NCBI GenBank assembly: GCA_016191845.1
Contig: JACPVF010000016.1
Coordinates: 186,001 to 250,000, forward strand
Reading direction: 5' to 3'
Origin: Chloroflexota bacterium
GTDB taxonomy: Bacteria > Chloroflexota > Anaerolineae > Anaerolineales > Villigracilaceae
DNA length: 64,000 bases
A model generated the notes under the pieces. It did no database searches and was not told the DNA's origin. It worked only from the letters and a program-made list of their open reading frames with translations. Shown piece by piece: positions 20,385-22,950 of this stretch (its first letter is position 1; each line of letters begins with the position of its first letter). The translations under genes and the position numbers were made by a program.

Positions 20385-20411
20385 CGAATCAACCCATTGG
20401 GAAGAGGTACC

Positions 20412-21530
20412 ATGAAAAAACAGAATCCAATTTTCCTGACCCTGGCCATTCTGGCCATCCTCCTCTCGGCTTGCGGATCGCAGCAGGCGACCGCTACGCC
20501 GTCTATGGCTACGCCTGTGCCCGCCTCCGACGTGATCGCCGAGGCTCATTTCGTCCCTGCCCGATATGCCACGCTCTCGTTCCTCGCGCGGGGTGGAGTC
20601 GCCGAGGTGAACGTCCAGATCGGTGATACGGTCAAGGCGGGTGATGTGCTGGCCCGCCTCGACAGCGCCGCTCCCGCTGAGGCGCAGGTGGTGGAACTGC
20701 AACAGGCCTACGACTCGCTCCTGCGCAACGCCAGCGCCGACCATGCCGCTGCCTGGCAGGCCTACATGAACGCCCAGAAGGTCCGTGAGACGGCCACCAA
20801 GAAGTGGAACGACATCAACCTGCGTGACATCGAGAAACGCATCGAGGATCGCCAGAAGGATGTGGACGATCGCAAGGCCGACCTCGACAAGGCCCAGGCA
20901 AACTTCGATGCGGTCAAGGATCGTGGCAAGGACGACTCCAACTACAGGGCCCGTGAGGATGACCTGGAGCACGCCCAGGCCGATTACGACGAGGCCGTCA
21001 AGGACCTCGAGTCCACCATTCGTGAGCGCGACGTCCCGCGCGCCAACCTCGATGCCGCGCTGGCCGCCGAAGCCGAGGCCAAGTATCAGTATGAGATCAG
21101 CCTCGACGGTCCCAACAAGGACAAATTGGCGCTGATCAAATCGCAGTTGGCGGCTGCCCAATCCACGCTGACCAACTACGTCATCACCGCGCCGTTCGAT
21201 GGGGTCGTGATGGACGTCAGCGTGTCGGTGGGTGACCAGGCTGGCCCAGAAGCCTATGCTGTCAAGATCGCCGACACCAGCGCCTGGTATGTTGAGACCA
21301 GCGATCTGACCGAGTTGGATGTGGTCAAGATCAGCCAGGGGCAGTCTGCCGCCGTCGTGGCTGATGCCCTCCCCGAGGTCACCATGCACGGCACGGTCGA
21401 AACCATCTCGCAAGCCTACACCCTGCAAAGCGGCGACATCCTCTACAAGGTCAAGCTCAAGGTCGAGGATGTGGATCCGCGTGTGCTATGGGGTATGACC
21501 GTGGAGGTCACCTTCACCTCGGGTAAGTAG
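20412..21530 (+). CDS. Lipoprotein membrane-fusion (HlyD/MacA-like) adaptor
   Basis: 372 residues. A signal peptide ends in the lipobox LLSACGS, so the mature protein is lipid-anchored. A lipoyl/barrel-sandwich half (AEVNVQIGDTVKAGDVLARLD) is followed by a long charged alpha-helical hairpin (~100-240, rich in Asp/Lys/Ala). The second half of the barrel is VITAPFDGVVMDVSVSVGDQAG, and the C-terminal beta domain follows. This is the adaptor of a MacAB-type efflux assembly, and it closes the exporter cluster. The ATG at 20412 has GAGG upstream. In a monoderm-like envelope the adaptor may serve permease regulation or substrate handling rather than docking to a TolC channel. Confidence 0.92.
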   Translation: MKKQNPIFLTLAILAILLSACGSQQATATPSMATPVPASDVIAEAHFVPARYATLSFLARGGVAEVNVQIGDTVKAGDVLARLDSAAPAEAQVVELQQAYDSLLRNASADHAAAWQAYMNAQKVRETATKKWNDINLRDIEKRIEDRQKDVDDRKADLDKAQANFDAVKDRGKDDSNYRAREDDLEHAQADYDEAVKDLESTIRERDVPRANLDAALAAEAEAKYQYEISLDGPNKDKLALIKSQLAAAQSTLTNYVITAPFDGVVMDVSVSVGDQAGPEAYAVKIADTSAWYVETSDLTELDVVKISQGQSAAVVADALPEVTMHGTVETISQAYTLQSGDILYKVKLKVEDVDPRVLWGMTVEVTFTSGK

Positions 21531-21545
21531 AACAGTTGTTGTATT

Positions 21546-21578
21546 GAATTCGCGCGAAAGCGTGCAATAATAAAATTG
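21546..21578 (+). promoter_or_regulatory. Putative promoter of the tandem riboswitch transcript
   Basis: TTGAAT, about 16-17 nt, then the AATAATAAAAT region, ending just before the first aptamer (21581). This would start transcription immediately 5' of the riboswitch array, independent of the exporter cluster. Confidence 0.5.
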
Positions 21579-21580
21579 CT

Positions 21581-21663
21581 CCGATAAAAGGCAAACCCGG
21601 GGAAACCCGGCGACGCAAAGTCATGGGTCTACGGTCAAATCGACCAGGACTGCCAGACTACCG
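21581..21663 (+). ncRNA. GEMM / cyclic-di-GMP-I riboswitch aptamer, copy 1 of 3
   Basis: Matches the GEMM-I consensus: AAAGGCAAACC, a stem CCGGG-GAAA-CCCGG capped by a GNRA tetraloop, then GCGACGCAAAGTCATGGGTCTA. A second stem GGTC/GACC follows, then AGGACTGCCAGACTACCG. The conserved GACGCAAAG joining region, the G just before CAAACC, and the C in the closing ACCG are all present, as in known c-di-GMP-binding members. It binds the second messenger in the 5' leader of an RNA. Ligand class is assigned by homology. Confidence 0.9.
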
Positions 21664-21748
21664 ATAAAAGCAAAACCGTCGAAAGACGGCGACGCAGAGC
21701 CCGGCATCTAACATCGGAAACAAAACGATTAGGATCGACCGGCCGACC
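21661..21748 (+). ncRNA. GEMM riboswitch aptamer, copy 2 of 3 (divergent)
   Basis: Directly abuts copy 1, sharing CCG. AAAGCAAAACC is followed by stem CCGTC-GAAA-GACGG, then GCGACGCAGAGCCCGGCATCTA, a second stem ATCG/CGAT, and TAGGATCGACCGGCCGACCG. Compensatory changes against copies 1 and 3 keep both stems. The joining region reads GACGCAGAG instead of GACGCAAAG, changing the middle A that in characterised aptamers stacks between the two ligand bases. Affinity or ligand choice may therefore differ, or this copy may be degenerate. Confidence 0.82.
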
Positions 21749-21831
21749 GAAAGGTAAAACCAGGGAAACCTGGCGACGCAAAGTCATGGGTCTAAAGTTG
21801 ACCACAGTCAACCATGACCGCCAGACTGCCG
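21746..21831 (+). ncRNA. GEMM riboswitch aptamer, copy 3 of 3
   Basis: AAAGGTAAAACC, stem CCAGG-GAAA-CCTGG, then the same joining sequence as copy 1 (GACGCAAAGTCATGGGTCTA). A longer second stem GTTGAC/GTCAAC follows, then GACCGCCAGACTGCCG. Its 3' end lies 11 nt before the terminator hairpin at 21843. The TGCCG at the aptamer 3' end can alternatively pair with CGGCA at the base of the terminator's 3' arm, giving a plausible switch. Confidence 0.88.
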
Positions 21832-21842
21832 AAGAGTTTTAC

Positions 21843-21880
21843 AGCAGGGATGTCAGCAACGGCATCCCTGCTTACATTTT
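21843..21880 (+). terminator. Terminator hairpin (expression platform) after the riboswitch array
   Basis: AGCAGGGATG / CATCCCTGCT, a 10-bp stem with a 10-nt loop, followed by TTACATTTT. It sits between the third aptamer and the ruvB promoter. This is the expected position for ligand-controlled transcription termination. Confidence 0.75.
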
Positions 21881-21911
21881 CTGAACCTGAGGCGGGTCCC
21901 GTTTCATTGGG

Positions 21912-21917
21912 TATAAT
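21912..21917 (+). promoter_or_regulatory. -10 box of a leaderless ruvB promoter
   Basis: A perfect TATAAT ending 7 nt before the ruvB ATG (21925). Transcription would begin at or next to the start codon. It lies downstream of the riboswitch terminator, so ruvB can be made without passing through the riboswitches. Confidence 0.7.
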
Positions 21918-21924
21918 CGAACCT

Positions 21925-22950
21925 ATGAGCGAATCCCGTCCCCGCCCCCTCGACCCCGAAGCCAAACCCGACGACCGCGTCGACAACGCCCTGCGTCCGC
22001 AAAAACTGGACGACCTGATCGGCCAGGACCAGGTCAAGGAAAACCTGTCCATCCTGATCGCTGCCGCGCGCGCACGTGGCGAGGCCCTGGACCACGTCCT
22101 CTTTTACGGACCGCCCGGGCTGGGCAAGACCACGCTGGCACATGTGGTTGCCAATGAGATGGGCGTCAACGTCAAGGTGACGGCAGGTCCCGTCATCGAG
22201 CGGGCGGGCGACCTGGCCGCCATCCTCACCAACCTGCGCGCAGGCGATGTGCTCTTTATCGACGAGGTCCATCGCCTGGGCCGCGCCGTGGAAGAGGTGC
22301 TGTATCCCGCCATGGAAGATTTCGCGCTGGATATCGTCATCGGCAAGGGACCCTCGGCACGCTCGATCCGCCTCAAGCTGCCGCATTTCACGGTCGTCGG
22401 TGCGACCACGCGCCTGGCGCTGGTCACGGCTCCGCTGCGGGCGCGCTTCGGCGCCGTCTATCGCCTCGACTATTACGACGCGCCCGCCATGCAGTCCATC
22501 GTCAGCCGTGCGGCGGGCATGTTGAAAGTGGAAGTGGACCAGGGCGGCATCGAAGAAGTGGCCCGTCGGGCCCGTGGCACCCCACGCGTGGCGTTGCGCC
22601 TGCTGCGGCGTGTCCGCGACTTTGCCCAGGTCCGCGCGAATGGCATTGTCACCCGCAAGGTGGCTCAGGAGGCGCTCGACCTGTTACAGGTCGATCCGCT
22701 GGGCCTGGATGATGTGGACCGCCGCGTGCTCAAGACCATCATCGAAAAATACAAGGGCGGACCCGTGGGCCTGAACACCATTGCCGCCTCGATCAGCGAG
22801 GAGCAGGACACCATCATGGACGTGGTCGAGCCCTACCTGTTGCAGTTGGGTTTCCTCGACCGCACCCCACAGGGCCGTGTGGCGACTAAATCCGCGTATG
22901 AGCATCTCGGGCTGGAGTGGAAGGAAGAGGGGCAGCCAAGGCTTCTTTGA
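21925..22950 (+). CDS. ruvB: Holliday junction branch migration helicase RuvB
   Basis: A 341-residue AAA+ ATPase that drives branch migration of Holliday junctions with RuvA. Walker A is [13 protein letters not shown], Walker B is [11 protein letters not shown], sensor 1 is VGATTR, and the arginine finger is in APLRARFG. The C-terminal winged helix ([19 protein letters not shown], then RTPQGRVAT) is complete. The ATG at 21925 is chosen because N-terminal residues from here match the family ([12 protein letters not shown]). The frame is open upstream into the riboswitch region but that part is not protein-like. ruvA and ruvC are not in the window. Confidence 0.97.

Follow-up and report, generated by a model that had tools for sequence, protein, structure and literature searches.

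Three c-di-GMP-I (GEMM) riboswitch aptamers stand in a row in the window (the whole 64-kb stretch of DNA analysed here), and our analysis suggests, with a probability of roughly three in four, that they form a free-standing gene for a noncoding RNA, some 300 nt long, that is closed by a helix, P0, and acts in trans, and that they are not the leader of a downstream gene. This reading draws on the anatomy of the array, on its conservation among relatives, and on its independence of the terminator and of the neighbouring genes; from these we infer that the RNA would be transcribed, would bind ligand and would act in trans.

A conserved array of three abutting aptamers

The Rfam c-di-GMP-I covariance model (RF01051; gathering score 35 bits) scores all three copies above its cut-off: copy 1 at 21580–21665 with 73.2 bits, copy 2 at 21659–21750 with 50.6 bits, and copy 3 at 21743–21833 with 72.2 bits, all on the plus strand, as are the other window features described here. 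A first-pass annotation of this DNA had assigned three GEMM aptamers to a single transcription unit, at coordinates that prove to lie within a few bases of the Rfam matches; the GAAA (GNRA) loop and GACGCA(A/G)AG joiner that it described are present in each of the three copies, and the compensatory helix changes that it noted between copies can be seen by eye. The score of copy 2 was obtained from a scan of copy 2 alone and from a whole-genome search; wider scans list the outer copies only, presumably because copy 2 shares a few bases at each end with its neighbours. Adjacent copies abut with no space between them, the CCGA between neighbours serving as the 3′ end of one copy and the 5′ start of the next, and there is one hairpin, after copy 3. 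No Rfam family spanning the whole array was reported for the window.

The unit is conserved in the family. In BLAST with positions 21560–21890, the list of matches being read by eye, at least 61 of 152 family genomes carry the array complete or almost complete. The 61 rows align through all three joiners, few of which are altered, and their identity to the window in the aptamer part ranges from 66 to 82% (median 74%). Among 56 of these arrays (L084 and L108 were left out, as were L099, L110 and L116, near-identical by eye), one or more sequences are changed on both sides at 41 of 58 consensus pairs, and such covariation is found in all three copies; a second alignment of 55 arrays additionally leaves out L111. 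That chance or an assembly artefact explains the array is very nearly inconceivable given the E-values of the outer copies (1.8e-12 and 3.2e-12 in the Rfam scan of the 64 kb) and the occurrence of the unit in 61 genomes, and we found no point in its favour.

When 400 genomes of the order were searched with a model built on copy 2 plus its flanks, three genomes belonging to one other family scored at least 90 bits. These loci were read by eye along with two that scored lower and come from two more families: L189–L192 carry three-copy arrays and L193 has a degenerate copy 1, which puts related arrays in three families of the order besides that of the window. Among 400 genomes sampled from the phylum, the copy 2 model reached at least 90 bits only in the family of the window. 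An exact match to the junction occurs in 14 named records, all from Chloroflexota and 8 of them labelled Anaerolineales or Anaerolinea, in a set from which near relatives of the window may be absent. A pattern search allowing two mismatches matched 149 of the 152 genomes and was uninformative. Carriage of the array by viruses was considered and rejected: in the stretch examined, the two viral-contig matches have neither the aptamer joiner nor the neighbour genes and are attributed to chance. Copies 1 and 3 of the window are 77 nt apart, a gap that recurs in doublets of relatives; inspection by eye of 20 tandem loci, with gaps of several lengths, identified L020 (genome G127) as a true triple with a divergent middle copy and revealed no hidden middle copy in the other doublets.

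Promoter, closing helix and terminator

The first-pass annotation had recognized a promoter-like element before the array and a terminator hairpin after it, and both recur in relatives well above shuffled controls. The σ70-like promoter (21544–21571) comprises TTGAAT at 21544–21549, a 16-nt spacer and an extended −10 element, TGC-AATAAT, at 21563–21571. A promoter-like pair scores at least 9.5 in 60/64 arrays versus 9.8% of shuffled upstream segments, and the −35 element begins with TTG in 63 of the 64; promoter and P0 counts cover 64 of 66 arrays, L108 and L084 being left out at contig ends. From the end of the −10 element to the CGA of the first aptamer the distance is 10 nt in 49/64 arrays, so the predicted transcription start falls at the 5′ strand of P0. 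We also observed a block, TGAGTGATTGA, just upstream of and overlapping the −35 element in 34 of 61 arrays (L059–L119); it is a possible activator site of the array promoter.

P0 joins the predicted 5′ end of the RNA to the segment right after copy 3: in the window, GCUC at 21578–21581, the predicted transcription start, pairs with GAGU at 21834–21837, with one G-U pair. Neither this closing helix nor the conservation of the unit figured in the first-pass annotation. At least 4 bp of P0 are found in 63/64 arrays, and the longest example, in L192, has 10 bp. The letters of the helix vary by clade while the pairing is kept (GCUC/GAGC, ACUU/AAGU, ACUC/GAGU and AUCC/GGAU). The summed length of P0 over the 64 arrays is 373 versus 298.8 (sd 8.5) with shuffled partners, and none of 2,000 shuffles reaches 373; because the array rows are related, such shuffles, like the Mann–Whitney comparison given below, overstate significance and independence. 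An earlier count on fixed columns found 303 of 354 cells paired against a shuffle mean of 273.7 (0/2,000). Pairing of the copy 1 5′ strand with its own flank was tried as another closure and rejected, as it yields at most 3 bp in 62/64 arrays. On this evidence P0 is the predicted replacement for the P1 helix of single aptamers, the inner copies sharing CCGA.

The intrinsic terminator hairpin (21843–21872; −21.5 kcal/mol) is followed by an imperfect U tract, UACAUUUU. A terminator-like hairpin lies behind 65/65 arrays (65 of 66 were counted, L108 being left out), and 63 of these hairpins score above 95% of shuffled segments. The predicted RNA has a median length of 316 nt, and 303 nt in the window. 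By consensus (60/64 promoters, 63/65 terminators) the array would have its own promoter and terminator, independent of its neighbours; against a standalone gene, P0 in the window has only 4 bp, one of them G-U, and the U tract is imperfect.

Independence from the terminator and the neighbouring genes

One alternative is a conventional cis-acting tandem riboswitch, in which the three aptamers govern read-through of the single terminator into ruvB. Such a device calls for an expression platform able to form alternative pairs with the aptamer, and we compared this complementarity in arrays and in conventional c-di-GMP-I riboswitches of the same family, accepting hairpins of −10 kcal/mol or better with four T in eight; 28 conventional aptamers were kept (L028 was dropped as like L026) and 55/61 arrays passed. 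Between the terminator 5′ arm and the aptamer 3′ half, the conventional riboswitches have a median z of −2.31 (n = 28), whereas copy 3 and the terminator arm of the 55 arrays, with shuffled arms as control, have a median z of 0.04 (Mann–Whitney p 1.2e-10, 55 vs. 28); the window array has a z of −0.1 in this comparison. Values below −2 occur in 18/28 conventional riboswitches, the other 10 failing to reach them, and in 2/55 arrays (L064 and L104). When the whole array is set against the terminator, the median z is 0.38 (n = 65), with one value below −2 (L193). An earlier complementarity test that included weak hairpins gave medians of −12.5 vs. −7.8. The array terminator looks, in these predictions, to be without detectable coupling to the aptamers and not switch-like.

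Coupled aptamer–terminator pairs do occur elsewhere in the same genome (L001, L004 and L006), which counts in favour of cis control as a capacity of this aptamer class in this organism. The genome search found eight c-di-GMP-I aptamers: the window array, two singles and a second triple (G000:C7:46547–46993; L006 1501–1947, minus strand). The second triple has coupled terminators after copies 1 and 2, so the two arrays of this genome are built differently; judged by these predicted terminators, it is a classic tandem riboswitch of the kind published for Bacillus. It lies upstream of a gene that by eye resembles one for a secreted protein. One single aptamer (L004 989–1591, on G000:C15) is located some 70 nt downstream of RNase P RNA, ahead of a gene that by eye resembles a response regulator.

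Triple-tandem c-di-GMP-I riboswitches are already published (PMC4759541, PMC9481103). Bc3-5 of Bacillus thuringiensis, in the 5′ UTR of cspABCDE, resembles the window array in that a single transcript carries three successive c-di-GMP-I aptamers, but in the part of that paper available to us it is described as three riboswitches that are independent of one another and can each form a terminator (PMC4759541), whereas the copies of the window array abut, are closed by P0, share one uncoupled terminator and lack a constant target. For c-di-GMP-I riboswitches, one survey reports 347 doublets and 12 triplets, and its Table 1 seems to place c-di-GMP-I tandems among the entries with multiple expression platforms (pseudo-cooperative); in the portions of that survey available to us we found no shared-platform or free-standing c-di-GMP-I array (PMC9481103). 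Tandem glycine aptamers are similar in that abutting homologous aptamers are followed by one terminal element; as far as that source could be consulted, they act in cis via the platform, whereas the window array has an uncoupled terminator, three copies and a mixed position 20 (PMC9481103). A 2025 survey of contiguous riboswitches, available in part, distinguishes tandem from adjacent-aptamer types (PMC12452182). Among the top-ranked titles and starts of abstracts in the open full-text literature, we found no free-standing, P0-closed three-aptamer RNA with a single terminator.

The neighbouring genes point the same way as the terminator. Upstream, a gene for a HlyD/CusB-type periplasmic adaptor (20397–21530; Pfam HlyD_D23 and HlyD_3) ends with a stop codon 13 nt before the −35 element. 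The gene 5′ of the 61 arrays, named like the other neighbours from one or two representatives per cluster, is an HlyD-type adaptor in 45 cases, a histidine kinase in 5, IMPDH in 3, an FtsX permease in 2, another gene in 4 and unassigned in 2; a PHROGs scan of two neighbour genes added nothing. Downstream, ruvB (21925–22950; RuvB_N and RuvB_C on the homologue in L096) is co-oriented and begins 52 bases beyond the hairpin, and its presence after the array in 33 of 61 loci likewise speaks for cis control. Against this, a different gene is found in 25 of the 58 visible loci, so that no co-oriented gene is constantly downstream: MBOAT genes follow in 8, response regulators in 5, other co-oriented genes in 3 and convergent genes in 9 (molybdopterin-binding 5, DnaJ 2, adenylosuccinate synthetase 1, unnamed 1), the remaining 3 loci meeting a contig end.

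The ruvB gene also has a −10 element of its own, TATAAT at 21912–21917, 7 nt before the ATG, and its promoter appears, from this spacing, to be near-leaderless; in 31 of 33 ruvB loci the interval from the array to the ruvB start region contains an exact TATAAT, versus 4.5% of shuffled segments. In genome G014, of the same genus, ruvB is 97% identical and has its own TATAAT with no aptamer in the stretch before it, and the array BLAST gave only single-copy matches there. Therefore, ruvB needs no such leader, and the synteny reflects descent. Taken with the uncoupled terminator, these results make cis control by the three aptamers very unlikely, and they do not support the first-pass view of one leader that would give a steep response of the downstream gene. 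We judge that ruvB in the window is not controlled by the array; given its place at 33/61 loci, read-through may have a weak effect in cis.

Ligand specificity and possible action in trans

Position 20, whose place in the Rfam numbering we take to follow that of Vc2, was read from alignment columns. It is G in copy 1 (base 21590), A in copy 2 (base 21669) and G in copy 3 (base 21753) of the window. According to the part of the survey available, G at the contact position favours c-di-GMP and A favours c-AMP-GMP (PMC9481103), so that in the window copy 2 only has the base of the GEMM-Ib type. Across the 61 arrays, copy 1 has A in 49 and G in 12; copy 2 has A in 55, G in 5 and C in 1; and copy 3 has G in 45, C in 11, A in 4 and a gap in 1. 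The commonest pattern is A-A-G (37/61), the window being G-A-G; in the other families, position 20 reads by eye A-A-G in L189 and L190, A-G-G in L191 and G-G-G in L192. In a sample of 44 conventional aptamers picked for doublets, it is G in 35, A in 7 and C in 2. We know of no ligand for C at this position.

As a separate observation, in nine conventional loci (L009, L012, L013, L014, L015, L017, L023, L123 and L125) the first scored aptamer, or the sole one, carries A or C at position 20, and in six of the nine a G20 aptamer then follows; from this arrangement such riboswitches are possible mixed-ligand switches.

Copy 3 looks like a canonical c-di-GMP site by its predicted features, and copies 1 and 2 would either have shifted in ligand or have become structural. 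It is possible, if doubtful, that the first two copies are ghosts, either degenerating or structural, and that copy 3 alone binds c-di-GMP, in effect as a single-site device. This would fit the prevalence of A at position 20 among copies 1 and 2, and the GNRA loop, which by automatic call is kept in 55/61 copies 3 vs. 27/61 copies 1 and 20/61 copies 2; however, the joiner (GACGCAAAG or GGCGCAAAG) is kept in 56/61 copies 1 and 49/61 copies 2, the helices of both copies covary, and all three window copies have GAAA loops.

The window array resembles c-AMP-GMP (GEMM-Ib) riboswitches and the Desulfobacca acetoxidans variant in having A for G at the contact (PMC9481103, PMC6456294). In the parts of these sources available to us, the GEMM-Ib riboswitches described are gene leaders, and Geobacter has a Hypr cyclase, that is, a GGDEF protein with Ser/Thr replacing D in GHxxGD (PMC9481103, PMC6456294); the window differs in having A in one copy of an array and in the lack of any Ser/Thr GGDEF seen in its genome. 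The genome has 27 GGDEF matches, none of them within the window (C15:186001–250000), as the first-pass annotation had stated for the window. Among the GGDEF proteins of this genome, D is found wherever GHxxGD is readable, a few degenerate matches lacking the motif, and no Ser/Thr variant was seen. The idea that c-AMP-GMP is made by a Hypr GGDEF of this genome was thus set aside; a c-AMP-GMP reading of copy 2 lacks a known source of ligand here, and c-AMP-GMP may be absent from the organism. The earlier suggestion of a multi-input response keeps some support from A20 in copy 2, and its companion, steep leader control of a downstream gene, is not supported.

We propose that the RNA would be transcribed from its own promoter, starting at the 5′ strand of P0 and probably in good amount, and that as many as three of its sites would bind cyclic dinucleotides: copy 3 as a canonical c-di-GMP site, and the copies with A20 (copies 1 and 2 in most relatives, copy 2 here) for c-AMP-GMP or both ligands, if they are not structural ghosts. 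Its output would be in trans, perhaps by titrating or buffering the messenger. Titration is the likeliest form of such action because the conserved parts are nearly all binding cores and closure. We therefore put forward, tentatively and with the odds somewhat against it, a new RNA family that serves as a trans-acting sink or buffer for cyclic dinucleotides, P0-closed, with up to three sites of mixed specificity (from the bases at position 20, possibly c-di-GMP at copy 3 and c-AMP-GMP or both at A20 copies), and that regulates the messenger pool.

Next after titration we rank a ligand-gated small RNA, in which ligand hides or exposes a pairing segment or a protein-binding surface. The candidate segments are the apical loop of P3 in copy 1, GAACUG, and the linker before the terminator; the loop, a candidate seed, protein site or tertiary contact, is fixed in 43/61 arrays, whereas copies 2 and 3 have variable apical loops. 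The standalone features (promoter, P0 and terminator) suit such an RNA too, and pure titration leaves the conserved GAACUG loop unexplained, so a gated small RNA stays a contender. We nevertheless hold it to be unlikely, since GAACUG is absent from the window array and from 18/61 arrays overall.

Trans action by aptamer-bearing RNAs has precedents in the ethanolamine regulons, where the AdoCbl-controlled small RNAs EutX and Rli55 act in trans through one aptamer and a protein-sequestering module. They resemble the proposed array RNA in working in trans, and differ from it in having one aptamer and another ligand. To our knowledge, riboswitch aptamers are otherwise almost entirely leaders of genes.

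If our reading of the array is true, aptamers would serve bacteria in trans, as a means of taking up or integrating second messengers; in the case of a sink or buffer, what is regulated would be the messenger pool itself and not a downstream gene. The array makes several questions testable: whether abutting aptamers without a P1 of their own still bind ligand, whether they cooperate through P0, and what A20 selects in bacteria without a recognised c-AMP-GMP cyclase.
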